DNA from: Utricularia gibba | Lineage: Eukaryota > Streptophyta > Magnoliopsida > Lamiales > Lentibulariaceae | DNA: 38,221 bases | Reading direction: 5' to 3' | Assembly: GCA_002189035.1 (NCBI GenBank) | Contig: NEEC01000045.1 | Coordinates: 1 to 38,221, forward strand | Shown here: positions 1 through 38,221 of the stretch, piece after piece | How the letters are laid out: every line of letters begins with the position of its first letter | How positions within the stretch are numbered: position 1 is the first letter of the stretch | The notes under the pieces: generated by a model | The model's input: only the letters and a program-made list of their open reading frames with translations | The model's database searches: none | Told to the model about the DNA's origin: nothing | Position numbers and translations under genes: made by a program

Positions 1-227
1 AACATATGGTGTCAGAATTCATCTACTATGCGATCAAGTTGGAAAAAAGTCACATGCTACATCATGAATTTCGTGGCATCACTTATCCCAACACTGTTAT
101 ACACTCTGGATATGCGTAAATATTTATTTTTAATGAATCCCGTGCACGTGTGATTTTTAGGATGCACCCCGAATGATGATGCGCAATGAAATGACTACGT
201 CGCACATCCTGGTCCGCGAAGCACCTC
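1..227 (+). repeat. Partial A monomer tail cut by the window edge
   Basis: The window opens in AACATATGGTGTCAG, the 3-prime half of an A monomer (EcoRI-site variant), and runs through the tail and the start of the next core. It matches the reference A tail closely. Confidence 0.9.
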
Positions 228-3200
228 TTGCATAACATGCAGATCCTTGCTCTTCATAGCACACTGTTGGGAAGCCCTTTTCGAGCTCCAAGTATTATAA
301 TTTGGAGTTACGTTTGTCCGATAACTGTGGACATATTAAAAAAGGGCCACAACGAAAGGTGTCTCACGTGGCATTCCGTGGTGACTGCATTTAATAATGT
401 GCTTCATGTTCTCGAAATTGATGCGAACAACATACAAGGCAAAAGAATCAAATAGCCACTAGAGACATGGTATACGGGAATGGTGCATCAAGAATCAGAA
501 GTATCATAGCAACTAAATGCATCAACATATGGGTGTCAGAATTCATCTACTATGCGATCAAGTTGGAAAAAAGTCACATGCTACATCATGAATTTCGTGG
601 CATCACTTATCCCAACACTGTTTAACACTCTGGATATGCGTAAATATTTATTTTTAATGAATCCCGTGCACGTGTGATTTTTAGGATGCACCCCGAATGA
701 TGATGCGCAATGAAATGACTACGTCGCACATCCTGGTCCGCGAAGCACCTCTTGCATAACATGCAGATCCTTGCTCTTCATAGCACACTGTTGGGAAGCC
801 CTTTTCGAGCTCCAAGTATTATAATTTGGAGTTACGTTTGTCCGATAACTGTGGACATATTAAAAACAAGCCACAACGAAAAGTGTCTTAGGTGGCCTTC
901 CTTGGTGGCTGCGTCTAATAATGTGCTTCATGTTCTCGACATTGATGCAAAAACATACACGGCAAAAGAATCAAATAGCCACTAGAGACATGGTATACGG
1001 GAATGGTGCATCAAGAATCAGAAGTATCATAGCAACTAAATGCATCAACATATGGTGTCAACTTCATCTACTATGCGATCAAGATGGAAAAAAGTCACAT
1101 GCTACATCATGAATTTTCGTGGCATCACTTATCCCAACACTGTTATACACTCTGGATATGCGTAAATATTTATTTTTAATGAATCCCGTGCACGTGATTT
1201 TTAGGATGCACCCGAATGATGATGCGCAATGAAATGACTACGTCGCACATCCTGGTCCGCGAAGCACCTCTTGCATAACATGCAGATCCTTGCTCTTCAT
1301 AGCACACTGTTGGGAAGCCCTTTTCGAGCTCCAAGTATTATAATTTGGAGTTACGTTTGTCCGATAACTGTGGACATATTAAAAAAGGGCCACAACGAAA
1401 GGTGTCTCACGTGGCATTCCGTGGTGACTGCATTTAATAATGTGCTTCATGTTCTCGAAATTGATGCGAACAACATACAAGGCAAAAGAATCAAATAGCC
1501 ACTAGAGACATGGTATACGGGAATGGTGCATCAAGAATCAGAAGTATCATAGCAACTAAATGCATCAACATATGGTGTCAGAATTCATCTACTATGCGAT
1601 CAAGTTGGAAAAAAGTCACATGCTACATCATGAATTTCGTGGCATCACTTATCCCAACACTGTTATACACTCTGGATATGCGTAAATATTTATTTTTAAT
1701 GAATCCCGTGCACGTGTGATTTTTAGGATGCACCCCGAATGATGATGCGCAATGAAATGACTACGTCGCACATCCTGGTCCGCGAAGCACCTCTTGCATA
1801 ACATGCAGATCCTTGCTCTTCATAGCACACTGTTGGGAAGCCCTTTTCGAGCTCCAAGTATTATAATTTGGAGTTACGTTTGTCCGATAACTGTGGACAT
1901 ATTAAAAAAGCCACAACGAAAAGGTGTCTTACGTGGCTTTCCGGTGGCTGCATTTAAGAATGTGCTTCTCGTTCTCGAAATTGATGAAACAACATACACG
2001 GCAAAAGAATCAAATAGCCACTAGAGACATGGTATGGGAATGGTGCATCAAGAATCAGAAGTATCATAGCAACTAAATGCATCAACATATGGTGTCAAAT
2101 TCATCTATATGCGATCAAGATGGAAAAAAAGTCACATGCTACATCATGAATTTCGTGGCATCACTTATCCCAACACTGTTATACACTCTGGATATGCGTA
2201 AATATTTATTTTTAATGAATCCGTGCACGTGTGATTTTTAGGATGCACCCCGAATGATGATGCGCAATGAAATGACTACGTCGCACATCCTGGTCCGCGA
2301 AGCACCTCTTGCATAACATGCAGATCCTTGCTCTTCATAGCACACTGTTGGGAAGCCCTTTTCGAGCTCCAAGTATTATAATTTGGAGTTACGTTTGTCC
2401 GATAACTGTGGACATATTAAAAACAAGCCACAACGAAAAGTGTCTCACGTGCATTCCTTGGTGCTGCGTTAATAATGTGCTTCATGTTCTCGAAATTGAT
2501 GCGAACAACATACAAGGCAAAAGAATCAAATAGCCACTAGAGACATGGTATACGGGAATGGTGCATCAAGAATCAGAAGTATCATAGCAACTAAATGCAT
2601 CAACATATGGTGTCAATTCATCTACTATGCGATCAAGTTGGAAAAAAGTCACATGCTACATCATGAATTTCGTGGCATCACTTATCCCAACACTGTTATA
2701 CACTCTGGATATGCGTAAATATTTATTTTTAATGAATCCCGTGCACGTGTGATTTTTAGGATGCACCCCGAATGATGATGCGCAATGAAATGACTACGTC
2801 GCACATCCTGGTCCGCGAAGCACCTCTTGCATAACATGCAGATCCTTGCTTCATAGCACACTGTTGGGAAGCCCTTTTCGAGCTCCAAGTATTATAATTT
2901 GGAGTTACGTTTGTCCGATAACTGTGGACATATTAAAAAAGGGCCACAACGAAAGTGTCTCACGTGGCTTTCCGTGGTGACTGCATTTAATAATGTGCTT
3001 CATGTTCTCGAATTGATGCAAACAACATACAAGGCAAAAGAATCAAATAGCCACTAGAGACATGGTATACGGGAATGGTGCATCAAGAATCAGAAGTATC
3101 ATAGCAACTAAATGCATCAACATATGGTGTCAGAATTCATCTACTATGCGATCAAGTTGGAAAAAAGTCACATGCTACATCATGAATTTCGTGGCATCAC

Positions 3201-4379
3201 TTATCCCAACACTGTTATACACTCTGGATATGCGTAAATATTTATTTTTAATGAATCCCGTGCACGTGTGATTTTTAGGATGCACCCCGAATGATGATGC
3301 GCAATGAAATGACTACGTCGCACATCCTGGTCCGCGAAGCACCTCTTGCATAACATGCAGATCCTTGCTCTTCATAGCACACTGTTGGGAAGCCCTTTTC
3401 GAGCTCCAAGTATTATAATTTGGAGTTACGTTTGTCCGATAACTGTGGACATATTAAAAAAGCCACAACGAAAGTGTCTCACGTGCTTTCCGTGGTGCTG
3501 CGTTTAATAATGTGCTTCTCGTTCTCGAAATTGATGCAAACAACATACAAGGCAAAAGAATCAAATAGCCACTAGAGACATGGTATACGGGAATGGTGCA
3601 TCAAGAATCAGAAGTATCATAGCAACTAAATGCATCAACATATGGTGTCAAATTCATCTATATGCGATCAAGATGGAAAAAAGTCACATGTTACATCATG
3701 AATTTCGTGGCATCACTTATCCCAACACTGTTTATACACTCTGGATATGCGTAAATATTTATTTTTAATGAATCCCGTGCACGTGTGATTTTTAGGATGC
3801 ACCCCGAATGATGATGCGCAATGAAATGACTACGTCGCACATCCTGGTCCGCGAAGCACCTCTTGCATAACATGCAGATCCTTGCTCTTCATAGCACACT
3901 GTTGGGAAGCCCTTTTCGAGCTCCAAGTATTATAATTTGGAGTTACGTTTGTCCGATAACTGTGGACATATTAAAAAAGGGCCACAACGAAAGGTGTCTC
4001 ACGTGCATTCGTGGTGACTGTTTAATAATGTGCTTCATGTTCTCGAATTGATGCGAACAACATACAAGGCAAAAGAATCAAATAGCCACTAGAGACATGG
4101 TATACGGGAATGGTGCATCAAGAATCAGAAGTATCATAGCAACTAAATGCATCAACATATGGTGTCAGAATTCATCTATATGCGATCAAGTTGGAAAAAA
4201 GTCACATGCTACATCATGAATTTCGTGGCATCACTTATCCCAACACTGTTATACACTCTGGATATGCGTAAATATTTATTTTTAATGAATCCCGTGCACG
4301 TGTGATTTTTAGGATGCACCCCGAATGATGATGCGCAATGAAATGACTACGTCGCACATCCTGGTCCGCGAAGCACCTC
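228..4379 (+). repeat. Eight A-like and A/B-hybrid monomers
   Basis: Monomers start at 228, 752, 1271, 1794, 2309, 2827, 3346 and 3863, spaced 515-524 bp. Those at 228 and 1271 are ordinary A in V1. Those at 752, 1794, 2309 and 3346 mix A and B bases in V1; 2827 and 3863 are A with single-base losses. None has the B-type 13-bp insertion, so the 1059-bp order is not present here. Many one-base losses fall where A and B disagree, for example GTGCTGC at 2461 for GTGACTGC/GTGGCTGC. An extra G (ATGGGTGTC) occurs near 530. Could be an older array edge or a mixed consensus. Confidence 0.85.
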
Positions 4380-7300
4380 TTGCATAACATGCAGATCCTT
4401 GCTCTTCATAGCACACTGTTGGGAAGCCCTTTTCGAGCTCCAAGTATTATAATTTGGAGTTACGTTTGTCCGATAACTGTGGACATATTAAAAACAAGCC
4501 ACAACGAAAAGTGTCTAGGTGTCCTTTCTTGGTGGCTGCGTCTAAGAATGTGCTTCTCGTTCTCGACATTGATGCAAATGGGATACACGGCAAAAGAATC
4601 AAATAGCCACTAGAGACATGGTGTATGGGAATGGTGCATCAAGAATCAGAAGTATCATAGCAACTAATTGAATCAATCAACAGCCAAAACATATGGTGTC
4701 AAATTCATCGGATATGCGATCAAGATGGAAAAAAGTCACATGTTACATCATGAATTTCGTGGCATCACTTATCCCAACACTGTTGTATACTCTGGATATG
4801 CGTAAATATTTATTTTTAATGAATCCCGTGCACGTGTGATTTTCGGCTGCACCCCGAATGGTGATGCGCAATGAAATGACTACGTCGCACATCCTGGTCC
4901 GCGAAACACCTCTTGCATAACATGCAGATCCTTGCTCTTCATAGCACACTGTTGGGAAGCCCTTTTCGAGCTCCAAGTATTATAATTTGGAGTTACGTTT
5001 GTCCGATAACTGTGGACATATTAAAAAAGGGCCACAACGAAAGGTGTCTCACGTGGCATTCCGTGGTGACTGCATTTAATAATGTGCTTCATGTTCTCGA
5101 AATTGATGCGAACAACATACAAGGCAAAAGAATCAAATAGCCACTAGAGACATGGTATACGGGAATGGTGCATCAAGAATCAGAAGTATCATAGCAACTA
5201 AATGCATCAACATATGGTGTCAGAATTCATCTACTATGCGATCAAGTTGGAAAAAAGTCACATGCTACATCATGAATTTCGTGGCATCACTTATCCCAAC
5301 ACTGTTATACACTCTGGATATGCGTAAATATTTATTTTTAATGAATCCCGTGCACGTGTGATTTTTAGGATGCACCCCGAATGATGATGCGCAATGAAAT
5401 GACTACGTCGCACATCCTGGTCCGCGAAGCACCTCTTGCATAACATGCAGATCCTTGCTCTTCATAGCACACTGTTGGGAAGCCCTTTTCGAGCTCCAAG
5501 TATTATAATTTGGAGTTACGTTTGTCCGATAACTGTGGACATATTAAAAACAAGCCACAACGAAAAGTGTCTTAGGTGTTGGTGGCTGCGTCTAAGAATG
5601 TGCTTCTCGTTCTCGACATTGATGCAAATGGGATACACGGCAAAAGAATCAAATAGCCACTAGAGACATGGTGTATGGGAATGGTGCATCAAGAATCAGA
5701 AGTATCATAGCAACTAATTGAATCAATCAACAGCCAAAACATATGGTGTCAAACTTCATCGGATATGCGATCAAGATGGAAAAAAGTCACATGTTACATC
5801 ATGAATTTCGTGGCATCACTTATCCCAACACTGTTGTATACTCAGGATATGCGTAAATATTTATTTTTAAAAATCCGTGCACGTGTGATTTTTCGGATGC
5901 ATCCCGAATGATGATGCGCAATGAAATGACTACGTCGCACATCCTGGTCCGCGAAGCACCTCTTGCATAACATGCAGATCCTTGCTCTTCATAGCACACT
6001 GTTGGGAAGCCCTTTTCGAGCTCCAAGTATTATAATTTGGAGTTACGTTTGTCCGATAACTGTGGACATATTAAAAAAGCCACAACGAAAAGTGTCTTAG
6101 GTGTCCTTTCTTGGTGCTGCTGCGTTCTCGACATTGATGCAAATGGGATACACGGCAAAAGAATCAAATAGCCACTAGAGACATGGTGTAGGGAATGGTG
6201 CATCAAGAATCAGAAGTATCATAGCAACTAATTGAATCAATCAACAGCCAAAACATATGGTGTCAAACTTCATCGGATATGCGATCAAGATGGAAAAAAG
6301 TCACATGTTACATCATGAATTTCGTGGCATCACTTATCCCAACACTGTTATATACTCTGGATATGCGTAAATATTTATTTTTAATGAATCCGTGCACGTG
6401 TGATTTTTAGGATGCACCCGAATGATGATGCGCAATGAAATGACTACGTCGCACATCCTGGTCCGCGAAGCACCTCTTGCATAACATGCAGATCCTTGCT
6501 CTTCATAGCACACTGTTGGGAAGCCCTTTTCGAGCTCCAAGTATTATAATTTGGAGTTACGTTTGTCCGATAACTGTGGACATATTAAAAAAGGGCCACA
6601 ACGAAAGGTGTCTCACGTGGCATTCCGTGGTGACTGCATTTAATAATGTGCTTCATGTTCTCGAAATTGATGCGAACAACATACAAGGCAAAAGAATCAA
6701 ATAGCCACTAGAGACATGGTATACGGGAATGGTGCATCAAGAATCAGAAGTATCATAGCAACTAAATGCATCAACATATGGTGTCAGAATTCATCTACTA
6801 TGCGATCAAGTTGGAAAAAAGTCACATGCTACATCATGAATTTCGTGGCATCACTTATCCCAACACTGTTATACACTCTGGATATGCGTAAATATTTATT
6901 TTTAATGAATCCCGTGCACGTGTGATTTTTAGGATGCACCCCGAATGATGATGCGCAATGAAATGACTACGTCGCACATCCTGGTCCGCGAAGCACCTCT
7001 TGCATAACATGCAGATCCTTGCTCTTCATAGCACACTGTTGGGAAGCCCTTTTCGAGCTCCAAGTATTATAATTTGGAGTTACGTTTGTCCGATAACTGT
7101 GGACATATTAAAAACAAGCCACAACGAAAAGTGTCTTAGGTGTCCTTTCTTGGTGGCTGCGTCTAAGAATGTGCTTCTCGTTCTCGACATTGATGCAAAT
7201 GGGATACACGGCAAAAGAATCAAATAGCCACTAGAGACATGGTGTATGGGAATGGTGCATCAAGAATCAGAAGTATCATAGCAACTAATTGAATCAATCA

Positions 7301-10300
7301 ACAGCCAAAACATATGGTGTCAAACTTCATCGGATATGCGATCAAGATGGAAAAAAGTCACATGTTACATCATGAATTTCGTGGCATCACTTATCCCAAC
7401 ACTGTTGTATACTCAGGATATGCGTAAATATTTATTTTTAACAAATCCGGTGCACGTGTGATTTTTCGGCTGCATCCCGAATGTGATGCGCAATGAAATG
7501 ACTACGTCGCACATCCTGGTCCGCGAAACACCTCTTGCATAACATGCAGATCCTTGCTCTTCATAGCACACTGTTGGGAAGCCCTTTTCGAGCTCCAAGT
7601 ATTATAATTTGGAGTTACGTTTGTCCGATAACTGTGGACATATTAAAAAAGGGCCACAACGAAAGGTGTCTCACGTGGCATTCCGTGGTGACTGCATTTA
7701 ATAATGTGCTTCATGTTCTCGAAATTGATGCGAACAACATACAAGGCAAAAGAATCAAATAGCCACTAGAGACATGGTATACGGGAATGGTGCATCAAGA
7801 ATCAGAAGTATCATAGCAACTAAATGCATCAACATATGGTGTCAGAATTCATCTACTATGCGATCAAGTTGGAAAAAAGTCACATGCTACATCATGAATT
7901 TCGTGGCATCACTTATCCCAACACTGTTATACACTCTGGATATGCGTAAATATTTATTTTTAATGAATCCCGTGCACGTGTGATTTTTAGGATGCACCCC
8001 GAATGATGATGCGCAATGAAATGACTACGTCGCACATCCTGGTCCGCGAAGCACCTCTTGCATAACATGCAGATCCTTGCTCTTCATAGCACACTGTTGG
8101 GAAGCCCTTTTCGAGCTCCAAGTATTATAATTTGGAGTTACGTTTGTCCGATAACTGTGGACATATTAAAAACAAGCCACAACGAAAAGTGTCTTAGGTG
8201 TCCTTTCTTGGTGGCTGCGTCTAAGAATGTGCTTCTCGTTCTCGACATTGATGCAAATGGGATACACGGCAAAAGAATCAAATAGCCACTAGAGACATGG
8301 TGTATGGGAATGGCATCAAGAATCAGAAGTATCATAGCAACTAATTGAATCAATCAACAGCCAAAACATATGGTGTCAAACTTCATCGGATATGCGATCA
8401 AGATGGAAAAAAGTCACATGTTACATCATGAATTTCGTGGCATCACTTATCCCAACACTGTTGTATACTCGGATATGCGTAAATATTTATTTTTAACAAA
8501 TCCGTGCACGTGTGATTTTTAGGATGCACCCCGAATGGTGATGCGCAATGAAATGACTACGTCGCACATCCTGGTCCGCGAAACACCTCTTGCATAACAT
8601 GCAGATCCTTGCTCTTCATAGCACACTGTTGGGAAGCCCTTTTCGAGCTCCAAGTATTATAATTTGGAGTTACGTTTGTCCGATAACTGTGGACATATTA
8701 AAAAAGGGCCACAACGAAAGGTGTCTCACGTGGCATTCCGTGGTGACTGCATTTAATAATGTGCTTCATGTTCTCGAAATTGATGCGAACAACATACAAG
8801 GCAAAAGAATCAAATAGCCACTAGAGACATGGTATACGGGAATGGTGCATCAAGAATCAGAAGTATCATAGCAACTAAATGCATCAACATATGGTGTCAG
8901 AATTCATCTACTATGCGATCAAGTTGGAAAAAAGTCACATGCTACATCATGAATTTCGTGGCATCACTTATCCCAACACTGTTATACACTCTGGATATGC
9001 GTAAATATTTATTTTTAATGAATCCCGTGCACGTGTGATTTTTAGGATGCACCCCGAATGATGATGCGCAATGAAATGACTACGTCGCACATCCTGGTCC
9101 GCGAAGCACCTCTTGCATAACATGCAGATCCTTGCTCTTCATAGCACACTGTTGGGAAGCCCTTTTCGAGCTCCAAGTATTATAATTTGGAGTTACGTTT
9201 GTCCGATAACTGTGGACATATTAAAAACAAGCCACAACGAAAAGTGTCTTAGGTGTCCTTTCTTGGTGGCTGCGTCTAAGAATGTGCTTCTCGTTCTCGA
9301 CATTGATGCAAATGGGATACACGGCAAAAGAATCAAATAGCCACTAGAGACATGGTGTATGGGAATGGTGCATCAAGAATCAGAAGTATCATAGCAACTA
9401 ATTGAATCAATCAACAGCCAAAACATATGGTGTCAAACTTCATCGGATATGCGATCAAGATGGAAAAAAGTCACATGTTACATCATGAATTTCGTGGCAT
9501 CACTTATCCCAACACTGTTGTATACTCAGGATATGCGTAAATATTTATTTTTAACAAATCCGTGCACGTGTGATTTTTCTGCATCCCGAATGGTGATGCG
9601 CAATGAAATGACTACGTCGCACATCCTGGTCCGCGAATCTTGCATAACATGCAGATCCTTGCTCTTCATAGCACACTGTTGGGAAGCCCTTTTCGAGCTC
9701 CAAGTATTATAATTTGGAGTTACGTTTGTCCGATAACTGTGGACATATTAAAAAAGGGCCACAACGAAAGGTGTCTCACGTGGCATTCCGTGGTGACTGC
9801 ATTTAATAATGTGCTTCATGTTCTCGAAATTGATGCGAACAACATACAAGGCAAAAGAATCAAATAGCCACTAGAGACATGGTATACGGGAATGGTGCAT
9901 CAAGAATCAGAAGTATCATAGCAACTAAATGCATCAACATATGGTGTCAGAATTCATCTACTATGCGATCAAGTTGGAAAAAAGTCACATGCTACATCAT
10001 GAATTTCGTGGCATCACTTATCCCAACACTGTTATACACTCTGGATATGCGTAAATATTTATTTTTAATGAATCCCGTGCACGTGTGATTTTTAGGATGC
10101 ACCCCGAATGATGATGCGCAATGAAATGACTACGTCGCACATCCTGGTCCGCGAAGCACCTCTTGCATAACATGCAGATCCTTGCTCTTCATAGCACACT
10201 GTTGGGAAGCCCTTTTCGAGCTCCAAGTATTATAATTTGGAGTTACGTTTGTCCGATAACTGTGGACATATTAAAAACAAGCCACAACGAAAAGTGTCTT

Positions 10301-10675: not shown

Positions 10676-12786
10676 TTGCATAACATGCAGATCCTTGCTC
10701 TTCATAGCACACTGTTGGGAAGCCCTTTTCGAGCTCCAAGTATTATAATTTGGAGTTACGTTTGTCCGATAACTGTGGACATATTAAAAAAGGGCCACAA
10801 CGAAAGGTGTCTCACGTGGCATTCCGTGGTGACTGCATTTAATAATGTGCTTCATGTTCTCGAAATTGATGCGAACAACATACAAGGCAAAAGAATCAAA
10901 TAGCCACTAGAGACATGGTATACGGGAATGGTGCATCAAGAATCAGAAGTATCATAGCAACTAAATGCATCAACATATGGTGTCAGAATTCATCTACTAT
11001 GCGATCAAGTTGGAAAAAAGTCACATGCTACATCATGAATTTCGTGGCATCACTTATCCCAACACTGTTATACACTCTGGATATGCGTAAATATTTATTT
11101 TTAATGAATCCCGTGCACGTGTGATTTTTAGGATGCACCCCGAATGATGATGCGCAATGAAATGACTACGTCGCACATCCTGGTCCGCGAAGCACCTCTT
11201 GCATAACATGCAGATCCTTGCTCTTCATAGCACACTGTTGGGAAGCCCTTTTCGAGCTCCAAGTATTATAATTTGGAGTTACGTTTGTCCGATAACTGTG
11301 GACATATTAAAAACAAGCCACAACGAAAAGTGTCTTAGGTGTCCTTTCTTGGTGGCTGCGTCTAAGAATGTGCTTCTCGTTCTCGACATTGATGCAAATG
11401 GGATACACGGCAAAAGAATCAAATAGCCACTAGAGACATGGTGTATGGGAATGGTGCATCAAGAATCAGAAGTATCATAGCAACTAATTGAATCAATCAA
11501 CAGCCAAAACATATGGTGTCAAACTTCATCGGATATGCGATCAAGATGGAAAAAAGTCACATGTTACATCATGAATTTCGTGGCATCACTTATCCCAACA
11601 CTGTTGTATACTCAGGATATGCGTAAATATTTATTTTTAACAAATCCGGTGCACGTGTGATTTTTCGGCTGCATCCCGAATGGTGATGCGCAATGAAATG
11701 ACTACGTCGCACATCCTGGTCCGCGAAACACCTCTTGCATAACATGCAGATCCTTGCTCTTCATAGCACACTGTTGGGAAGCCCTTTTCGAGCTCCAAGT
11801 ATTATAATTTGGAGTTACGTTTGTCCGATAACTGTGGACATATTAAAAAAGGGCCACAACGAAAGGTGTCTCACGTGGCATTCCGTGGTGACTGCATTTA
11901 ATAATGTGCTTCATGTTCTCGAAATTGATGCGAACAACATACAAGGCAAAAGAATCAAATAGCCACTAGAGACATGGTATACGGGAATGGTGCATCAAGA
12001 ATCAGAAGTATCATAGCAACTAAATGCATCAACATATGGTGTCAGAATTCATCTACTATGCGATCAAGTTGGAAAAAAGTCACATGCTACATCATGAATT
12101 TCGTGGCATCACTTATCCCAACACTGTTATACACTCTGGATATGCGTAAATATTTATTTTTAATGAATCCCGTGCACGTGTGATTTTTAGGATGCACCCC
12201 GAATGATGATGCGCAATGAAATGACTACGTCGCACATCCTGGTCCGCGAAGCACCTCTTGCATAACATGCAGATCCTTGCTCTTCATAGCACACTGTTGG
12301 GAAGCCCTTTTCGAGCTCCAAGTATTATAATTTGGAGTTACGTTTGTCCGATAACTGTGGACATATTAAAAACAAGCCACAACGAAAAGTGTCTTAGGTG
12401 TCCTTTCTTGGTGGCTGCGTCTAAGAATGTGCTTCTCGTTCTCGACATTGATGCAAATGGGATACACGGCAAAAGAATCAAATAGCCACTAGAGACATGG
12501 TGTATGGGAATGGTGCATCAAGAATCAGAAGTATCATAGCAACTAATTGAATCAATCAACAGCCAAAACATATGGTGTCAAACTTCATCGGATATGCGAT
12601 CAAGATGGAAAAAAGTCACATGTTACATCATGAATTTCGTGGCATCACTTATCCCAACACTGTTGTATACTCAGGATATGCGTAAATATTTATTTTTAAC
12701 AAATCCGGTGCACGTGTGATTTTTCGGCTGCATCCCGAATGGTGATGCGCAATGAAATGACTACGTCGCACATCCTGGTCCGCGAA

Positions 12787-12787
12787 A
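12787..12787. other. G/A variant site marking B-to-A junctions
   Basis: The base in GCGAARCACC is always G before B monomers but G or A before A monomers. Listing by the A monomer that follows: A at 4913, 7535, 8590, 10676, 11735, 12794; G at 13853, 14912, 15970, 17028, 18086, 19413; A at 20472; G at 21531; A at 22590, 23649; G at 26339, 27398; A at 28420, 29479; G at 30538; A at 31597, 32656 and at 34755-37925. In clean blocks it is almost the only difference among units. Confidence 0.85.
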
Positions 12788-12851
12788 CACCTCTTGCATA
12801 ACATGCAGATCCTTGCTCTTCATAGCACACTGTTGGGAAGCCCTTTTCGAG

Positions 12852-12873
12852 CTCCAAGTATTATAATTTGGAG
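12852..12873. other. Inverted repeat in the core (6-bp arms, 10-nt AT loop)
   Basis: CTCCAA at 12852-12857 pairs with TTGGAG at 12868-12873 around ten A/T-rich bases that include ATTATAAT, itself a palindrome. It overlaps the perfect palindrome GAGCTC at 12849-12854. The element is present in nearly every monomer, so it recurs about every 530 bp. Short dyads able to form non-B structures are known enrichments of centromeric satellites lacking CENP-B boxes; that this one extrudes is inference. Confidence 0.6.
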
Positions 12874-12930
12874 TTACGTTTGTCCGATAACTGTGGACAT
12901 ATTAAAAAAGGGCCACAACGAAAGGTGTCT

Positions 12931-12936
12931 CACGTG
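12931..12936. other. A-specific CACGTG (E-box/G-box core) in V1
   Basis: The perfect palindrome CACGTG occurs in V1 of A monomers and is lost in B, which reads TTAGGTG. Together with the tail copies this gives three CACGTG sites per 1059-bp unit. CACGTG is the core for bHLH and bZIP factors in eukaryotes; any occupancy here is unknown. Confidence 0.4.
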
Positions 12937-13137
12937 GCATTCCGTGGTGACTGCATTTAATAATGTGCTTCATGTTCTCGAAATTGATGCGAACAACATA
13001 CAAGGCAAAAGAATCAAATAGCCACTAGAGACATGGTATACGGGAATGGTGCATCAAGAATCAGAAGTATCATAGCAACTAAATGCATCAACATATGGTG
13101 TCAGAATTCATCTACTATGCGATCAAGTTGGAAAAAA

Positions 13138-13145
13138 GTCACATG
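13138..13145. other. GTCACATG motif (conserved in every monomer type)
   Basis: GTCACATG follows an A-run in both A and B (13138-13145; B copy 13674-13681) and is kept even in truncated monomers such as the one at 19217. It matches RTCACRTG, the CDEI site bound by Cbf1 at budding-yeast point centromeres, but no CDEIII-like sequence follows, so the match is recorded only as a conserved motif. Confidence 0.35.
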
Positions 13146-13230
13146 CTACATCATGAATTTCGTGGCATCACTTATCCCAACACTGTTATACACTCTGGAT
13201 ATGCGTAAATATTTATTTTTAATGAATCCC

Positions 13231-25289: not shown

Positions 25290-25555
25290 AGTGTCAACTA
25301 ACGTGCTTCTCGTTGCGACATTGATGCAAATGTGGGCGGCCCACTCTGGTGTATGGAATGGTGCATCAAGCAGATCAGGTAAAGGCATAACTACATTTAT
25401 CACAACAGTGTATCAAACTTCATCGGATATGCGATCAAGATGGAAAAAAGTCACATGCCATCATGAATTTCGTGGATACATTAATCAACACAGCTAATAC
25501 TTTTTCATCTCCGGTGTCAGCCCTCGGATGGCCAATCTGCTCGTCGCACATCCTG
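25290..25555. other. Segment with sequence not seen elsewhere in the array
   Basis: Amid recognisable fragments (CGTGCTTCTCGTT, TGGTGCATCAAG, the GATCAAGATGGAAAA motif) lie pieces foreign to the monomer: around 25331-25345 (TGTGGGCGGCCCACT), about 25370-25410 (AGATCAGGTAAAGGCATAAC onward) and about 25497-25541 (TACTTTTTCATCTCCGGTG, then CCCTCGGATGGCCAATCTGC). No reading frame, target-site duplication or terminal repeat of an inserted element was seen. Confidence 0.55.
25332..25344. other. Perfect GC-rich inverted repeat (6-bp arms, 1-nt centre)
   Basis: GTGGGC-G-GCCCAC occurs once in the window, in the scrambled island. Its GC-rich composition contrasts with the surrounding satellite. It is too short and has no T-run after it to be read as a terminator. 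Confidence 0.6.
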
Positions 25556-25813
25556 GTCTACATGCAGATCCTTGCTCTTCATAGCACACTGTTGGGAAGC
25601 AGCTCCAAGGGAGTTACATAACTGTGGACATATTATACAACACTATACGGTGGTCCGAATCAGAAGTATCATAGCAACTAAATGCATCAACAGAATGCGA
25701 TCAAGTCACATGCGAATTTCATCGTGGATATGCGTAAATAGAATCACGTGCACCCCGAATGATGATGCGCAATGAAATGACTACGTCGCACATCCTGGTC
25801 CGCGAAGCACCTC

Positions 25814-27513
25814 TTGCATAACATGCAGATCCTTGCTCTTCATAGCACACTGTTGGGAAGCCCTTTTCGAGCTCCAAGTATTATAATTTGGAGTTACGTT
25901 TGTCCGATAACTGTGGACATATTAAAAACAAGCCACAACGAAAAGTGTCTTAGGTGTCCTTTCTTGGTGGCTGCGTCTAAGAATGTGCTTCTCGTTCTCG
26001 ACATTGATGCAAATGGGATACACGGCAAAAGAATCAAATAGCCACTAGAGACATGGTGTATGGGAATGGTGCATCAAGAATCAGAAGTATCATAGCAACT
26101 AATTGAATCAATCAACAGCCAAAACATATGGTGTCAAACTTCATCGGATATGCGATCAAGATGGAAAAAAGTCACATGTTACATCATGAATTTCGTGGCA
26201 TCACTTATCCCAACACTGTTGGATATGCGTAAATATTTATTTTTAACAATCCGTGCACGTGTGATTTTTCGGCTGCACCCCGAATGATGATGCGCAATGA
26301 AATGACTACGTCGCACATCCTGGTCCGCGAAGCACCTCTTGCATAACATGCAGATCCTTGCTCTTCATAGCACACTGTTGGGAAGCCCTTTTCGAGCTCC
26401 AAGTATTATAATTTGGAGTTACGTTTGTCCGATAACTGTGGACATATTAAAAAAGGGCCACAACGAAAGGTGTCTCACGTGGCATTCCGTGGTGACTGCA
26501 TTTAATAATGTGCTTCATGTTCTCGAAATTGATGCGAACAACATACAAGGCAAAAGAATCAAATAGCCACTAGAGACATGGTATACGGGAATGGTGCATC
26601 AAGAATCAGAAGTATCATAGCAACTAAATGCATCAACATATGGTGTCAGAATTCATCTACTATGCGATCAAGTTGGAAAAAAGTCACATGCTACATCATG
26701 AATTTCGTGGCATCACTTATCCCAACACTGTTATACACTCTGGATATGCGTAAATATTTATTTTTAATGAATCCCGTGCACGTGTGATTTTTAGGATGCA
26801 CCCCGAATGATGATGCGCAATGAAATGACTACGTCGCACATCCTGGTCCGCGAAGCACCTCTTGCATAACATGCAGATCCTTGCTCTTCATAGCACACTG
26901 TTGGGAAGCCCTTTTCGAGCTCCAAGTATTATAATTTGGAGTTACGTTTGTCCGATAACTGTGGACATATTAAAAACAAGCCACAACGAAAAGTGTCTTA
27001 GGTGTCCTTTCTTGGTGGCTGCGTCTAAGAATGTGCTTCTCGTTCTCGACATTGATGCAAATGGGATACACGGCAAAAGAATCAAATAGCCACTAGAGAC
27101 ATGGTGTATGGGAATGGTGCATCAAGAATCAGAAGTATCATAGCAACTAATTGAATCAATCAACAGCCAAAACATATGGTGTCAAACTTCATCGGATATG
27201 CGATCAAGATGGAAAAAAGTCACATGTTACATCATGAATTTCGTGGCATCACTTATCCCAACACTGTTGTATACTCAGGATATGCGTAAATATTTATTTT
27301 TAACAAATCCGGTGCACGTGTGATTTTTCGGCTGCATCCCGAATGGTGATGCGCAATGAAATGACTACGTCGCACATCCTGGTCCGCGAAGCACCTCTTG
27401 CATAACATGCAGATCCTTGCTCTTCATAGCACACTGTTGGGAAGCCCTTTTCGAGCTCCAAGTATTATAATTTGGAGTTACGTTTGTCCGATAACTGTGG
27501 ACATATTAAAAAA
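25814..27513 (+). repeat. Short higher-order repeat block 3 (B-A-B-A partial)
   Basis: Monomers start at B 25814 (525 bp; lost bases in its tail near 26220-26255), A 26339, B 26862 and A 27398. The A at 27398 has a normal core and then leaves the satellite consensus at about 27514, before V1. Confidence 0.88.
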
Positions 27514-27883
27514 GTAAACATCAACGTGGCAAGGCTAGCATGCCATCAATCAGCATAGCAACTAAATGCATTCACAGATGGCACCTTGCTCTTCATAGCA
27601 CACTGTTGGGAAGCCCTTTTCGAGCTCCAAGTATTATAATTTGGAGTTACGTTTGTCCGATAACTGTGGTAATAACAACTTGGTGCGCAATTATCATTAC
27701 GCAGCATGTCAAGCACATGCGAATTTCGTGGCATCACTTATCCCAACACTGTTATACGGATATTAAATATTTATTTTTATGAATCGCACGTGTTGGATCA
27801 CATGCTGAATTTCGATGCACTCCCGAATGGATGCATGCGCAATGAAATGACTACGTCGCACATCCTGGTCCGCGAAGCACCTC
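27514..27883 (+). repeat. Second scrambled island with a minimal core copy
   Basis: After ATTAAAAAAG at 27504-27513 comes unassignable sequence (AACATCAACGTGGCAAGGC) and then a stripped core at about 27583-27669, from ACCTTGCTCTTCATAGC to GATAACTGTGG. V1 and V2 are replaced by short fragments with many losses, and the tail (27720-27840) is patchy with a rearranged TGCATGCGC. The B monomer at 27884 is normal again. Confidence 0.8.
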
Positions 27884-30800
27884 TTGCATAACATGCAGAT
27901 CCTTGCTCTTCATAGCACACTGTTGGGAAGCCCTTTTCGAGCTCCAAGTATTATAATTTGGAGTTACGTTTGTCCGATAACTGTGGACATATTAAAAACA
28001 AGCCACAACGAAAAGTGTCTTAGGTGTCCTTTCTTGGTGGCTGCGTCTAAGAATGTGCTTCTCGTTCTCGACATTGATGCAAATGGGATACACGGCAAAA
28101 GAATCAAATAGCCACTAGAGACATGGTGTATGGGAATGGTGCATCAAGAATCAGAAGTATCATAGCAACTAATTGAATCAATCAACAGCCAAAACATATG
28201 GTGTCAAACTTCATCGGATATGCGATCAAGATGGAAAAAAGTCACATGTTACATCATGAATTTCGTGGCATCACTTATCCCAACACTGTTGTATACTCAG
28301 GATATGCGTAAATATTTATTTTTAACAAATCCGGTGCACGTGTGATTTTTCGGCTGCATCCCGAATGGTGATGCGCAATGAAATGACTACGTCGCACATC
28401 CTGGTCCGCGAAACACCTCTTGCATAACATGCAGATCCTTGCTCTTCATAGCACACTGTTGGGAAGCCCTTTTCGAGCTCCAAGTATTATAATTTGGAGT
28501 TACGTTTGTCCGATAACTGTGGACATATTAAAAAAGGGCCACAACGAAAGGTGTCTCACGTGGCATTCCGTGGTGACTGCATTTAATAATGTGCTTCATG
28601 TTCTCGAAATTGATGCGAACAACATACAAGGCAAAAGAATCAAATAGCCACTAGAGACATGGTATACGGGAATGGTGCATCAAGAATCAGAAGTATCATA
28701 GCAACTAAATGCATCAACATATGGTGTCAGAATTCATCTACTATGCGATCAAGTTGGAAAAAAGTCACATGCTACATCATGAATTTCGTGGCATCACTTA
28801 TCCCAACACTGTTATACACTCTGGATATGCGTAAATATTTATTTTTAATGAATCCCGTGCACGTGTGATTTTTAGGATGCACCCCGAATGATGATGCGCA
28901 ATGAAATGACTACGTCGCACATCCTGGTCCGCGAAGCACCTCTTGCATAACATGCAGATCCTTGCTCTTCATAGCACACTGTTGGGAAGCCCTTTTCGAG
29001 CTCCAAGTATTATAATTTGGAGTTACGTTTGTCCGATAACTGTGGACATATTAAAAACAAGCCACAACGAAAAGTGTCTTAGGTGTCCTTTCTTGGTGGC
29101 TGCGTCTAAGAATGTGCTTCTCGTTCTCGACATTGATGCAAATGGGATACACGGCAAAAGAATCAAATAGCCACTAGAGACATGGTGTATGGGAATGGTG
29201 CATCAAGAATCAGAAGTATCATAGCAACTAATTGAATCAATCAACAGCCAAAACATATGGTGTCAAACTTCATCGGATATGCGATCAAGATGGAAAAAAG
29301 TCACATGTTACATCATGAATTTCGTGGCATCACTTATCCCAACACTGTTGTATACTCAGGATATGCGTAAATATTTATTTTTAACAAATCCGGTGCACGT
29401 GTGATTTTTCGGCTGCATCCCGAATGGTGATGCGCAATGAAATGACTACGTCGCACATCCTGGTCCGCGAAACACCTCTTGCATAACATGCAGATCCTTG
29501 CTCTTCATAGCACACTGTTGGGAAGCCCTTTTCGAGCTCCAAGTATTATAATTTGGAGTTACGTTTGTCCGATAACTGTGGACATATTAAAAAAGGGCCA
29601 CAACGAAAGGTGTCTCACGTGGCATTCCGTGGTGACTGCATTTAATAATGTGCTTCATGTTCTCGAAATTGATGCGAACAACATACAAGGCAAAAGAATC
29701 AAATAGCCACTAGAGACATGGTATACGGGAATGGTGCATCAAGAATCAGAAGTATCATAGCAACTAAATGCATCAACATATGGTGTCAGAATTCATCTAC
29801 TATGCGATCAAGTTGGAAAAAAGTCACATGCTACATCATGAATTTCGTGGCATCACTTATCCCAACACTGTTATACACTCTGGATATGCGTAAATATTTA
29901 TTTTTAATGAATCCCGTGCACGTGTGATTTTTAGGATGCACCCCGAATGATGATGCGCAATGAAATGACTACGTCGCACATCCTGGTCCGCGAAGCACCT
30001 CTTGCATAACATGCAGATCCTTGCTCTTCATAGCACACTGTTGGGAAGCCCTTTTCGAGCTCCAAGTATTATAATTTGGAGTTACGTTTGTCCGATAACT
30101 GTGGACATATTAAAAACAAGCCACAACGAAAAGTGTCTTAGGTGTCCTTTCTTGGTGGCTGCGTCTAAGAATGTGCTTCTCGTTCTCGACATTGATGCAA
30201 ATGGGATACACGGCAAAAGAATCAAATAGCCACTAGAGACATGGTGTATGGGAATGGTGCATCAAGAATCAGAAGTATCATAGCAACTAATTGAATCAAT
30301 CAACAGCCAAAACATATGGTGTCAAACTTCATCGGATATGCGATCAAGATGGAAAAAAGTCACATGTTACATCATGAATTTCGTGGCATCACTTATCCCA
30401 ACACTGTTGTATACTCAGGATATGCGTAAATATTTATTTTTAACAAATCCGGTGCACGTGTGATTTTTCGGCTGCATCCCGAATGGTGATGCGCAATGAA
30501 ATGACTACGTCGCACATCCTGGTCCGCGAAGCACCTCTTGCATAACATGCAGATCCTTGCTCTTCATAGCACACTGTTGGGAAGCCCTTTTCGAGCTCCA
30601 AGTATTATAATTTGGAGTTACGTTTGTCCGATAACTGTGGACATATTAAAAAAGGGCCACAACGAAAGGTGTCTCACGTGGCATTCCGTGGTGACTGCAT
30701 TTAATAATGTGCTTCATGTTCTCGAAATTGATGCGAACAACATACAAGGCAAAAGAATCAAATAGCCACTAGAGACATGGTATACGGGAATGGTGCATCA

Positions 30801-33308
30801 AGAATCAGAAGTATCATAGCAACTAAATGCATCAACATATGGTGTCAGAATTCATCTACTATGCGATCAAGTTGGAAAAAAGTCACATGCTACATCATGA
30901 ATTTCGTGGCATCACTTATCCCAACACTGTTATACACTCTGGATATGCGTAAATATTTATTTTTAATGAATCCCGTGCACGTGTGATTTTTAGGATGCAC
31001 CCCGAATGATGATGCGCAATGAAATGACTACGTCGCACATCCTGGTCCGCGAAGCACCTCTTGCATAACATGCAGATCCTTGCTCTTCATAGCACACTGT
31101 TGGGAAGCCCTTTTCGAGCTCCAAGTATTATAATTTGGAGTTACGTTTGTCCGATAACTGTGGACATATTAAAAACAAGCCACAACGAAAAGTGTCTTAG
31201 GTGTCCTTTCTTGGTGGCTGCGTCTAAGAATGTGCTTCTCGTTCTCGACATTGATGCAAATGGGATACACGGCAAAAGAATCAAATAGCCACTAGAGACA
31301 TGGTGTATGGGAATGGTGCATCAAGAATCAGAAGTATCATAGCAACTAATTGAATCAATCAACAGCCAAAACATATGGTGTCAAACTTCATCGGATATGC
31401 GATCAAGATGGAAAAAAGTCACATGTTACATCATGAATTTCGTGGCATCACTTATCCCAACACTGTTGTATACTCAGGATATGCGTAAATATTTATTTTT
31501 AACAAATCCGGTGCACGTGTGATTTTTCGGCTGCATCCCGAATGGTGATGCGCAATGAAATGACTACGTCGCACATCCTGGTCCGCGAAACACCTCTTGC
31601 ATAACATGCAGATCCTTGCTCTTCATAGCACACTGTTGGGAAGCCCTTTTCGAGCTCCAAGTATTATAATTTGGAGTTACGTTTGTCCGATAACTGTGGA
31701 CATATTAAAAAAGGGCCACAACGAAAGGTGTCTCACGTGGCATTCCGTGGTGACTGCATTTAATAATGTGCTTCATGTTCTCGAAATTGATGCGAACAAC
31801 ATACAAGGCAAAAGAATCAAATAGCCACTAGAGACATGGTATACGGGAATGGTGCATCAAGAATCAGAAGTATCATAGCAACTAAATGCATCAACATATG
31901 GTGTCAGAATTCATCTACTATGCGATCAAGTTGGAAAAAAGTCACATGCTACATCATGAATTTCGTGGCATCACTTATCCCAACACTGTTATACACTCTG
32001 GATATGCGTAAATATTTATTTTTAATGAATCCCGTGCACGTGTGATTTTTAGGATGCACCCCGAATGATGATGCGCAATGAAATGACTACGTCGCACATC
32101 CTGGTCCGCGAAGCACCTCTTGCATAACATGCAGATCCTTGCTCTTCATAGCACACTGTTGGGAAGCCCTTTTCGAGCTCCAAGTATTATAATTTGGAGT
32201 TACGTTTGTCCGATAACTGTGGACATATTAAAAACAAGCCACAACGAAAAGTGTCTTAGGTGTCCTTTCTTGGTGGCTGCGTCTAAGAATGTGCTTCTCG
32301 TTCTCGACATTGATGCAAATGGGATACACGGCAAAAGAATCAAATAGCCACTAGAGACATGGTGTATGGGAATGGTGCATCAAGAATCAGAAGTATCATA
32401 GCAACTAATTGAATCAATCAACAGCCAAAACATATGGTGTCAAACTTCATCGGATATGCGATCAAGATGGAAAAAAGTCACATGTTACATCATGAATTTC
32501 GTGGCATCACTTATCCCAACACTGTTGTATACTCAGGATATGCGTAAATATTTATTTTTAACAAATCCGGTGCACGTGTGATTTTTCGGCTGCATCCCGA
32601 ATGGTGATGCGCAATGAAATGACTACGTCGCACATCCTGGTCCGCGAAACACCTCTTGCATAACATGCAGATCCTTGCTCTTCATAGCACACTGTTGGGA
32701 AGCCCTTTTCGAGCTCCAAGTATTATAATTTGGAGTTACGTTTGTCCGATAACTGTGGACATATTAAAAAAGGGCCACAACGAAAGGTGTCTCACGTGGC
32801 ATTCCGTGGTGACTGCATTTAATAATGTGCTTCATGTTCTCGAAATTGATGCGAACAACATACAAGGCAAAAGAATCAAATAGCCACTAGAGACATGGTA
32901 TACGGGAATGGTGCATCAAGAATCAGAAGTATCATAGCAACTAAATGCATCAACATATGGTGTCAGAATTCATCTACTATGCGATCAAGTTGGAAAAAAG
33001 TCACATGCTACATCATGAATTTCGTGGCATCACTTATCCCAACACTGTTATACACTCTGGATATGCGTAAATATTTATTTTTAATGAATCCCGTGCACGT
33101 GTGATTTTTAGGATGCACCCCGAATGATGATGCGCAATGAAATGACTACGTCGCACATCCTGGTCCGCGAAGCACCTCTTGCATAACATGCAGATCCTTG
33201 CTCTTCATAGCACACTGTTGGGAAGCCCTTTTCGAGCTCCAAGTATTATAATTTGGAGTTACGTTTGTCCGATAACTGTGGACATATTAAAAACAAGCCA
33301 CAACGAAA
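27884..33308 (+). repeat. Clean higher-order repeat block 4 (about 5.1 dimers)
   Basis: One B at 27884, then dimers at 28420, 29479, 30538, 31597 and 32656, all 1059 bp apart and visually identical to the reference except at the G/A site (A, A, G, A, A). It ends in V1 of the B monomer at 33179, within about 15 bases of the equivalent point at which block 2 ends. Confidence 0.93.
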
Positions 33309-34219
33309 GAATTGTCTTAGGTGTCCACGTTGGTGGCTGCGTCTACGTGTGCTTCTCGTTCTCGACATTGATGCATAATGGGATAGCACGGCAACATAAT
33401 AGCCACTAGAAGACACATCAAATGTATGGAGACATGGTGCATCAAGAATCAGAAGTATCATAGCAACTAAAATCAATCAACATATGGTGTCAAATTCATC
33501 TATATGCGATCAAGATGGAAAAAAGTCACATGTTACATCATGAATTTCGTGGCATCACTTATCCCAACACTGTTGTATACTCAGGATATGCGTAAATATT
33601 TATTTTTAACAATCCGTGCACGTGTGATTTTTAGGATGCACCCGAATGATGATGCGCAATGAAATGACTACGTCGCACATCCTGGTCCGCGAAGCACCTC
33701 TTGCATAACATGCAGATCCTTGCTCTTCATAGCACACTGTTGGGAAGCCCTTTTCGAGCTCCAAGTATTATAATTTGGAGTTACGTTTGTCCGATAACTG
33801 TGGACATATTAAAAAAAGCCACAACGAAAGTGTCTTAGGTGTCCTTCTTGGTGGCTGCGTTAATAATGTGCTTCATGTTCTCGAAATTGATGCGAACAAC
33901 ATACAAGGCAAAAGAATCAAATAGCCACTAGAGACATGGTATACGGGAATGGTGCATCAAGAATCAGAAGTATCATAGCAACTAAATGCATCAACATATG
34001 GTGTCAGAATTCATCTACTATGCGATCAAGTTGGAAAAAAGTCACATGCTACATCATGAATTTCGTGGCATCACTTATCCCAACACTGTTATACACTCTG
34101 GATATGCGTAAATATTTATTTTTAATGAATCCCGTGCACGTGTGATTTTTAGGATGCACCCCGAATGATGATGCGCAATGAAATGACTACGTCGCACATC
34201 CTGGTCCGCGAAGCACCTC
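33309..34219 (+). repeat. Diverged B tail followed by one hybrid monomer
   Basis: From 33309 the B monomer carries insertions as well as losses (AAGAATTGTC, GTCCACGTTGG, GCATAATGGGATAGCACGG, GAAGACACATCAAATG), which is unusual since most other defects in the window are losses. Its V2 lacks the 13-bp insertion. The monomer starting at 33701 (519 bp) is B in the first part of V1 and A from TTAATAATGTGC on, so it is a B/A recombinant or mixture. Confidence 0.85.
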
Positions 34220-37200
34220 TTGCATAACATGCAGATCCTTGCTCTTCATAGCACACTGTTGGGAAGCCCTTTTCGAGCTCCAAGTATTATAATTTGGAGT
34301 TACGTTTGTCCGATAACTGTGGACATATTAAAAACAAGCCACAACGAAAAGTGTCTTAGGTGTCCTTTCTTGGTGGCTGCGTCTAAGAATGTGCTTCTCG
34401 TTCTCGACATTGATGCAAATGGGATACACGGCAAAAGAATCAAATAGCCACTAGAGACATGGTGTATGGGAATGGTGCATCAAGAATCAGAAGTATCATA
34501 GCAACTAATTGAATCAATCAACAGCCAAAACATATGGTGTCAAACTTCATCGGATATGCGATCAAGATGGAAAAAAGTCACATGTTACATCATGAATTTC
34601 GTGGCATCACTTATCCCAACACTGTTGTATACTCAGGATATGCGTAAATATTTATTTTTAACAAATCCGTGCACGTGTGATTTTTCGGCTGCATCCCGAA
34701 TGGTGATGCGCAATGAAATGACTACGTCGCACATCCTGGTCCGCGAAACACCTCTTGCATAACATGCAGATCCTTGCTCTTCATAGCACACTGTTGGGAA
34801 GCCCTTTTCGAGCTCCAAGTATTATAATTTGGAGTTACGTTTGTCCGATAACTGTGGACATATTAAAAAAGGGCCACAACGAAAGGTGTCTCACGTGGCA
34901 TTCCGTGGTGACTGCATTTAATAATGTGCTTCATGTTCTCGAAATTGATGCGAACAACATACAAGGCAAAAGAATCAAATAGCCACTAGAGACATGGTAT
35001 ACGGGAATGGTGCATCAAGAATCAGAAGTATCATAGCAACTAAATGCATCAACATATGGTGTCAGAATTCATCTACTATGCGATCAAGTTGGAAAAAAGT
35101 CACATGCTACATCATGAATTTCGTGGCATCACTTATCCCAACACTGTTATACACTCTGGATATGCGTAAATATTTATTTTTAATGAATCCCGTGCACGTG
35201 TGATTTTTAGGATGCACCCCGAATGATGATGCGCAATGAAATGACTACGTCGCACATCCTGGTCCGCGAAGCACCTCTTGCATAACATGCAGATCCTTGC
35301 TCTTCATAGCACACTGTTGGGAAGCCCTTTTCGAGCTCCAAGTATTATAATTTGGAGTTACGTTTGTCCGATAACTGTGGACATATTAAAAACAAGCCAC
35401 AACGAAAAGTGTCTTAGGTGTCCTTTCTTGGTGGCTGCGTCTAAGAATGTGCTTCTCGTTCTCGACATTGATGCAAATGGGATACACGGCAAAAGAATCA
35501 AATAGCCACTAGAGACATGGTGTATGGGAATGGTGCATCAAGAATCAGAAGTATCATAGCAACTAATTGAATCAATCAACAGCCAAAACATATGGTGTCA
35601 AACTTCATCGGATATGCGATCAAGATGGAAAAAAGTCACATGTTACATCATGAATTTCGTGGCATCACTTATCCCAACACTGTTGTATACTCAGGATATG
35701 CGTAAATATTTATTTTTAACAAATCCGTGCACGTGTGATTTTTCGGCTGCATCCCGAATGGTGATGCGCAATGAAATGACTACGTCGCACATCCTGGTCC
35801 GCGAAACACCTCTTGCATAACATGCAGATCCTTGCTCTTCATAGCACACTGTTGGGAAGCCCTTTTCGAGCTCCAAGTATTATAATTTGGAGTTACGTTT
35901 GTCCGATAACTGTGGACATATTAAAAAAGGGCCACAACGAAAGGTGTCTCACGTGGCATTCCGTGGTGACTGCATTTAATAATGTGCTTCATGTTCTCGA
36001 AATTGATGCGAACAACATACAAGGCAAAAGAATCAAATAGCCACTAGAGACATGGTATACGGGAATGGTGCATCAAGAATCAGAAGTATCATAGCAACTA
36101 AATGCATCAACATATGGTGTCAGAATTCATCTACTATGCGATCAAGTTGGAAAAAAGTCACATGCTACATCATGAATTTCGTGGCATCACTTATCCCAAC
36201 ACTGTTATACACTCTGGATATGCGTAAATATTTATTTTTAATGAATCCCGTGCACGTGTGATTTTTAGGATGCACCCCGAATGATGATGCGCAATGAAAT
36301 GACTACGTCGCACATCCTGGTCCGCGAAGCACCTCTTGCATAACATGCAGATCCTTGCTCTTCATAGCACACTGTTGGGAAGCCCTTTTCGAGCTCCAAG
36401 TATTATAATTTGGAGTTACGTTTGTCCGATAACTGTGGACATATTAAAAACAAGCCACAACGAAAAGTGTCTTAGGTGTCCTTTCTTGGTGGCTGCGTCT
36501 AAGAATGTGCTTCTCGTTCTCGACATTGATGCAAATGGGATACACGGCAAAAGAATCAAATAGCCACTAGAGACATGGTGTATGGGAATGGTGCATCAAG
36601 AATCAGAAGTATCATAGCAACTAATTGAATCAATCAACAGCCAAAACATATGGTGTCAAACTTCATCGGATATGCGATCAAGATGGAAAAAAGTCACATG
36701 TTACATCATGAATTTCGTGGCATCACTTATCCCAACACTGTTATACTCAGGATATGCGTAAATATTTATTTTTAACAAATCCGGTGCACGTGTGATTTTT
36801 CGGCTGCATCCCGAATGGTGATGCGCAATGAAATGACTACGTCGCACATCCTGGTCCGCGAAACACCTCTTGCATAACATGCAGATCCTTGCTCTTCATA
36901 GCACACTGTTGGGAAGCCCTTTTCGAGCTCCAAGTATTATAATTTGGAGTTACGTTTGTCCGATAACTGTGGACATATTAAAAAAAGGGCCACAACGAAA
37001 GGTGTCTCACGTGGCATTCCGTGGTGACTGCATTTAATAATGTGCTTCATGTTCTCGAAATTGATGCGAACAACATACAAGGCAAAAGAATCAAATAGCC
37101 ACTAGAGACATGGTATACGGGAATGGTGCATCAAGAATCAGAAGTATCATAGCAACTAAATGCATCAACATATGGTGTCAGAATTCATCTACTATGCGAT

Positions 37201-38221
37201 CAAGTTGGAAAAAAGTCACATGCTACATCATGAATTTCGTGGCATCACTTATCCCAACACTGTTATACACTCTGGATATGCGTAAATATTTATTTTTAAT
37301 GAATCCCGTGCACGTGTGATTTTTAGGATGCACCCCGAATGATGATGCGCAATGAAATGACTACGTCGCACATCCTGGTCCGCGAAGCACCTCTTGCATA
37401 ACATGCAGATCCTTGCTCTTCATAGCACACTGTTGGGAAGCCCTTTTCGAGCTCCAAGTATTATAATTTGGAGTTACGTTTGTCCGATAACTGTGGACAT
37501 ATTAAAAACAAGCCACAACGAAAAGTGTCTTAGGTGTCCTTTCTTGGTGGCTGCGTCTAAGAATGTGCTTCTCGTTCTCGACATTGATGCAAATGGATAC
37601 ACGGCAAAAGAATCAAATAGCCACTAGAGACATGGTGTATGGGAATGGTGCATCAAGAATCAGAAGTATCATAGCAACTAATTGAATCAATCAACAGCCA
37701 AAACATATGGTGTCAAACTTCATCGGATATGCGATCAAGATGGAAAAAAGTCACATGTTACATCATGAATTTCGTGGCATCACTTATCCCAACACTGTTA
37801 TACACTCAGGATATGCGTAATATTTATTTTTAACAAATCCGGTGCACGTGTGATTTTTCGGATGCACCCGAATTGATGCGCAATGAAATGACTACGTCGC
37901 ACATCCTGGTCCGCGAAACACCTCTTGCATAACATGCAGATCCTTGCTCTTCATAGCACACTGTTGGGAAGCCCTTTTCGAGCTCCAAGTATTATAATTT
38001 GGAGTTACGTTTGTCCGATAACTGTGGACATATTAAAAAAGGCCACAACGAAAGGTGTCTCACGTGGCATTCCGTGGTGACTGCATTTAATAATGTGCTT
38101 CATGTTCTCGAAATTGATGCGAACAACATACAAGGCAAAAGAATCAAATAGCCACTAGAGACATGGTATACGGGAATGGTGCATCAAGAATCAGAAGTAT
38201 CATAGCAACTAAATGCATCAA
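34220..38221 (+). repeat. Higher-order repeat block 5, cut by the window edge
   Basis: B 34220, then dimers at 34755, 35813 and 36870 and a partial A from 37925. Spacings are 1058, 1057 and 1055 because each B tail has lost one or a few bases (AATCCGTGC near 34665 and 35723; CTGTTATACTC near 36737; AAATGGATAC near 37591; GCGTAATATTT and GAATTGATG near 37815-37876). The window ends in V2 of an A monomer, at ATGCATCAA. Confidence 0.9.

Follow-up and report, generated by a model that had tools for sequence, protein, structure and literature searches.

Very probably, the damaged monomers of the satellite array described here are consensus artifacts of mixed reads of its two alternating units, A and B, and the satellite itself is real. 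The window analyzed is a stretch of 38,221 bp that makes up one contig in full (G000:C391, positions 1-38221, forward strand) of the 516 in a 100.09-Mb assembly of the Utricularia gibba genome, and it consists of monomers of ~530 bp arranged head-to-tail. By far the best account of the bases missing from its imperfect monomers is the mixing of A and B reads.

The reference copy of monomer A spans 10700-11222 on the forward strand (523 bp; 27 identical copies in the window), and is followed on the same strand by the reference copy of monomer B at 11223-11758 (536 bp), the two most frequent 536-bp forms of B being present in the window in 9 and 5 copies. The alignment of both units occupies 536 columns, with 45 substitutions among the 523 shared columns and one 13-bp insert, carried by B. 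The head-to-tail alternation of two variants that characterizes a satellite with a dimeric higher-order repeat is present in the window, which is a genuine plant satellite array whose regular period and repeat unit is the A-B dimer of 1059 bp. Regular A-B blocks extend over 10700-18632, where single losses occur in three B units (15459, 16517 and 17575), and over 19437-24195 and 28444-33202, both devoid of losses (all on the forward strand). Tandem Repeats Finder, with a maximum period of 500, reported no repeat in the window. A conserved core 20-mer, CTCCAAGTATTATAATTTGG, has 1,496 exact copies in the genome (507 on one strand and 989 on the other), corresponding to ~0.8 Mb of repeat. A literature search met no description of this ~530-bp satellite in the consulted portions of the articles retrieved, including PMC8333044, PMC10663240 and PMC6982007.

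Several blocks of the forward strand depart from this regular pattern. The first damaged block (776-4403) contains mosaics of A, B and absent columns in the units starting at 776, 1818, 2333, 3370 and 3887, together with unit 2849, which has two losses, and the intact unit 1295; the A-to-A distance across it, from 1295 to 4937, amounts to 3.44 dimers. The second (5460-6500; units 5460 and 5987) and the third (18633-19436) lie within A-to-A distances of 1.48 and 1.25 dimers, respectively. A scrambled zone at 24196-26362, with an A-to-A distance of 2.54 dimers, comprises five irregular core-to-core pieces (224, 415, 349, 393 and 261 bp) and one damaged B. Between 24196 and 25837 the conserved cores are kept at irregular spacing, separated by short stretches that in part resemble neither A nor B, a scrambling that goes beyond simple two-register mixing and is not explained by it. 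Further damage affects an A slot at 27422-27907, where the conserved core is present twice (169 + 317 bp), a block at 33203-34243 (units 33203 and 33725), and the B that constitutes the last unit near the contig end (37418-37948). Intervals between perfect A units fall within 3 bp of 1059 in 18 of 27 cases, and the four intervals given above, which are far from whole dimers, each span damaged blocks. Such half-dimer register slips are the expected remnant of joining reads in two registers; real unequal exchange also shifts the register.

The first-pass annotation of this DNA had proposed that the bases missing from imperfect monomers fall where A and B disagree, and had quoted six types of shortened motif as examples. 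All six were found in the window, displaced by one base at most: the three-column loss TTAAAATCCGTG at 19319, inside the third damaged block; TTAACAATCCGTG at 26243 and 33606; GTGCTGC at 2461 and 3495, and additionally at 6114; CTCGGAT at 8468, and additionally at 25523; CGAATGTG at 7478; and CTCGAATT at 3007, and additionally at 4042. The undamaged A and B versions of these motifs occur 19 to 49 times each in the window, and a single genomic occurrence was found for the triple-loss motif together with its flanks (19316-19334). For a systematic count, the window was cut at the conserved 20-mer into 75 units, 67 of which (480-560 bp) were aligned to an A/B mosaic model in which each column was scored as A, B, lost or other, with the remaining 8, of irregular length, left out. 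Losses were present in 25 of the 67 aligned units, and the loss test was run on 22 of these after dropping the irregular units 10187, 18633 and 33203. Because one allele is often the same as the neighboring base, the placement of a loss is ambiguous, and the 67 units yield 88 discordant and 82 concordant losses when ties are assigned to discordant columns, and 15 and 155 when they are assigned to concordant ones. As raw counts thus depend on tie-breaking, they were judged against deletions simulated with an identical tie rule, in three null models of 100 runs each that placed the deletions uniformly, in homopolymers, or within 3 bp of an A/B difference.

With ties favoring the claim, 74 of 113 losses in the 22 units were placed on discordant columns, compared to 14.3±3.7 in the uniform, 17.7±4.1 in the homopolymer and 33.9±5.0 in the within-3-bp null. 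Of the single-base losses, 51 of 54 could be placed on discordant columns, with nulls of 8.1±2.6 (maximum 16), 11.1±3.0 (maximum 20) and 20.0±3.8 (maximum 33), respectively. With ties set against the claim, 12 discordant single losses were left, compared to 3.2±1.9 and 2.1±1.2 for the uniform and homopolymer nulls and to 7.5±2.6 for the within-3-bp null, which reached 14, so that this strict count alone does not rule out the latter. The proposed concentration of losses at discordant columns in the window is confirmed. Concordant columns hold the other 39 of the 113 losses, which is above the level of the clean-backbone simulation described below. Stretches identical in A and B stay intact, as expected of a mixed-read consensus artifact: 16 events (losses or mismatches) were counted over the 6,058 column-units in the interiors of nine concordant stretches of at least 15 columns (units of irregular length excluded), with five of the nine free of events and 5, 2, 7 and 2 events in the other four. 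The longest stretch (2,054 column-units) is among those without events, and as the cutting anchor covers part of it, events there would be invisible.

The analysis was extended to six further satellite contigs (118.7 kb; 186 units, of which 166 were aligned and 20 skipped for their length). Three of them, C79, C80 and C97, consist of A-B dimers with damage like that of the window, and in 58 of their units, after 2 with block losses had been dropped, 119 of 170 single losses were discordant, compared to 23.8±4.5 and 32.6±5.6 in two nulls (60 runs each), the latter being the homopolymer one. The other three, C381, C383 and C503, carry a third unit, C, of 536 bp, separated from A by a single mismatch and two gaps (15 and 2 bases). 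Unit C closely resembles A, except that its first variable columns are B-like and that it has an insert similar to the 13-bp one; it forms arrays of its own, in whose fetched stretches no alternation was seen. Positions 1-5000 of C503 hold another kind of tandem repeat, in which open frames recur, the C-type satellite lying further along this contig. Losses in the C-type arrays occur mostly at homopolymers and at a few variable columns. In 75 units from the three contigs, 50 of 111 single losses lie within two columns of one of three polymorphic columns, a zone that makes up 2.8% of the unit and whose hot spots are also homopolymers. A loss in the CCCG run that is also affected in the window is found in 24 of these 75 units, and a loss in this run is also the one shared by the identical B units 34244 and 35302 of the window, so that it is possibly a real allele or a systematic error. 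Some losses, that in CCC[G] in particular, may stem from real variation or from plain homopolymer error.

The effect of mixing was modeled by combining noisy A and B reads in a backbone-anchored graph consensus, where half of the local coverage is subtracted from the number of reads on an edge to give its score, a rule that we take to be the pbdagcon scoring (0.5 x coverage). Mixes with 30 to 70% A rendered mosaics in which some columns were those of A, some those of B, and others were absent. With a clean backbone and a 50% threshold, 150 mixed runs produced 555 discordant and 13 concordant losses, compared to 7 and 2 in 60 runs of pure A and 33 and 9 in 60 runs of pure B, and with a noisy backbone 500 mixed runs produced 2,564 and 630. 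Lowering the threshold to 0.35 (150 mixed runs of 40 reads) gave 133 discordant losses, four times fewer than at 50%, and no concordant ones. A plurality-vote control proved to be badly built, in that any deletion in its noisy backbone cost the consensus a base: its 500 runs gave 1,899 discordant and 6,677 concordant losses, with a rho that still reached 0.50. The clean backbones at two thresholds took its place.

These figures bear on ordinary homopolymer undercalling in noisy long reads, independent of A/B mixing, which we regard as an improbable explanation of the losses. At many lost columns one allele equals the adjacent base, the commonest C-type losses lie at or beside CCC, CCCC and A runs, and the simulated pure-B reads lost 42 columns in their 60 runs, all of which is as undercalling would have it. 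However, pure-A reads lost only 9 in as many runs, the homopolymer null fell far below the discordant single losses observed both in the window and in C79, C80 and C97, and undercalling by itself makes neither A/B mosaics nor partial 13-bp inserts.

The loss profile over the 45 discordant columns was then compared between the simulation and the 31 heavily damaged units (13 from the window, 12 from C80, 4 from C97 and 2 from C79), giving a Spearman correlation of 0.70 (p about 1e-7), compared to 0.21 for a random-deletion control. Taken contig by contig, rho was 0.86 for C80 (12 units), 0.44 for C97 (4), 0.24 for the window (13) and 0.11 for C79 (2), the simulated profile showing no significant correlation with that of the window alone (p 0.11). 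Two columns, 425 (CC[C/G]G) and 451 (CA[C/T]CCC), were lost far more often than simulated, and dropping them raised rho for the window to only 0.25. The threshold of 0.35 still gave rho values of 0.56 and 0.60, and other settings gave 0.56 to 0.64, so the 0.5 rule is not the only one to yield such a correlation. Among the alleles that survived, the proportion of A per column was not significantly correlated with the simulation (0.25, p 0.10).

Additional evidence came from the surroundings of the 13-bp insert, where some units contain chimeric strings foreign to both A and B: AGCAACTAAAATCATCAACAGCC in two C80 units, AGCAACTAATTGAATCATCAACATATGG in one C80 unit, and AGCAACTAATTGCAATCAACAGCC in one C97 unit. 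These strings appeared exactly in 2, 11 and 6 of 500 simulated consensuses, respectively, and in none of 5,000 uniform and none of 5,000 nearby random-deletion controls. The partial-insert string of window unit 18633 was absent from the 500 simulations. The most frequent partial-insert states in the simulation, BB-BB---BBBBB (18 of 500) and B-BB--------- (14 of 500), were found three times and once, respectively, in 158 assembled units. A test on 14-mers did not discriminate: the simulation contained 928 of 2014 novel k-mers and the two controls 905 and 868, although the k-mer set of the controls is two to three times the size of that of the simulation. As many as 14 changes between A and B were counted over the 45 sites of a damaged unit, with a median of 5 switches in the real units (2 of the 31 having none) vs. 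9.5 in the simulated ones. All 31 heavily damaged units differ from each other, whereas the 84 units without discordant loss comprise 19 sequences. The cause that the first-pass annotation had put forward, a consensus caller working on mixed A and B reads, is thus supported, if indirectly, by a model that produces similar mosaics, the pooled correlation of 0.70 and the chimeric strings of C80 and C97. The annotation had also suggested that the true number of copies may be higher.

The same observations weigh against the view that the damaged monomers are real, being old A/B hybrids formed by unequal crossing over or gene conversion, with small deletions in fast-evolving parts. In its favor, losses cluster near variable positions, as if change were tolerated there, one imperfect B unit is present in two identical copies, and unequal exchange predicts hybrids at register breaks. 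Nevertheless, this origin has little to recommend it: deletions confined to within 3 bp of a difference account for less than half of the 51 discordant single losses, up to 14 switches per unit and exact single-column losses are unlike tract-like conversion, and no two heavily damaged units are alike in an otherwise faithfully copied family. It is hardly credible that recombination between satellite copies really removes mismatched bases from A/B heteroduplex DNA, and mismatch-directed deletion, by which hybrid monomers would shrink exactly where their A and B parents differ, deserves equally little credence. Losses exactly at discordant columns and register breaks are what it predicts, but we know of no repair pathway that would excise a mismatched pair and nothing else. 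A program supplied with only A and B already yields both the correlated pooled profile and those chimeric strings, and no heavy damage pattern recurs in a second copy.

Mixing of A and B reads very probably damaged the monomers as follows. Noisy long reads of A would be aligned over reads of B, either by a register shift of one monomer or by the recruitment of reads from another copy of the array, and a graph consensus would then be built from the mixture. Bases would survive where A and B agree, while at a discordant column neither base would hold half of the coverage, for which reason the best path would take A, take B, or often skip the column. Later polishing would have failed to restore the sequence, presumably with reads mapping ambiguously in the repeat. 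The assembly is probably a PacBio/HGAP product made with pbdagcon. According to the consulted part of the published description, the U. gibba genome was assembled by HGAP from 88x PacBio data with mean subreads of 10.4 kb (PMC5793159), and pbdagcon is described, in the section consulted, as the correction and consensus module of HGAP, which takes the best-scored path through the graph (PMC4906657). The general artifact is known: in the consulted section of PMC7545148, mixed alleles are said to give a mosaic consensus, with frameshifts possible, and ambiguous mapping is named as a way in which polishing may introduce errors into repeats. Among the titles returned by a literature search on the exact artifact, none describes it directly, and the Canu and HiCanu papers, as far as consulted, present the general problem. 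Given this background, and with read mixing as the best account, the losses are very probably, for the most part, no real feature of the plant.

Regarding the genomic context, C-type satellite is located at the start of the 3.45-Mb contig C505, where it was seen at 1-10,000 and at 20,001-21,000 and not at 30,001-31,000. Among the core matches listed, the first contig is C79; if these follow contig order, C1 to C78, including C3, have no exact copy of the core. Plant-type telomere repeats open contigs C1 to C4 among the matches listed, and C3 (5,347,415 bp) has them at both ends. In the portion of PMC8333044 consulted, U. gibba is described as having four putatively complete chromosomes and putative centromeric regions without satellite repeats. 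The mitochondrial contig C515 carries COX1 with an intron-encoded endonuclease. By eye, we take this COX1 to be the intron-containing plant type. Two short contigs, C390 and C502, share a GC-rich sequence at their start, and the sizes of C390, C502, C505, C515 and C1 are exact multiples of 2,500.

As the missing bases look like averaging errors, the damaged copies should not be taken as real biology. Work on satellite evolution, gene conversion or copy number based on this assembly would misread consensus damage as mutation, and across the damaged blocks the contig does not give the real length or order of the array. Losses that fall on variant columns, frequent switching between alleles, damaged copies of which no two are alike, and half-dimer register slips together constitute a signature that provides a simple test, with no need for reads, for any satellite contig derived from noisy long reads.

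The closest parallel to the damage is the mosaic consensus that arises from collapsed haplotypes or repeat copies, as presented in the part of PMC7545148 consulted. There, likewise, the averaging of two similar sequences yields a third that is identical to neither and has small losses, and ambiguous mapping makes the polishing of repeats unreliable. Unlike those mosaics, the sources here alternate as the two halves of one satellite dimer, so that mixing would come about through a register shift of one monomer, and the presence of intact A and B allows each column to be scored. The array itself shares with plant satellite DNA of dimeric higher-order structure its head-to-tail monomers of ~530 bp, near-identical copies, alternating variants and several arrays per genome.
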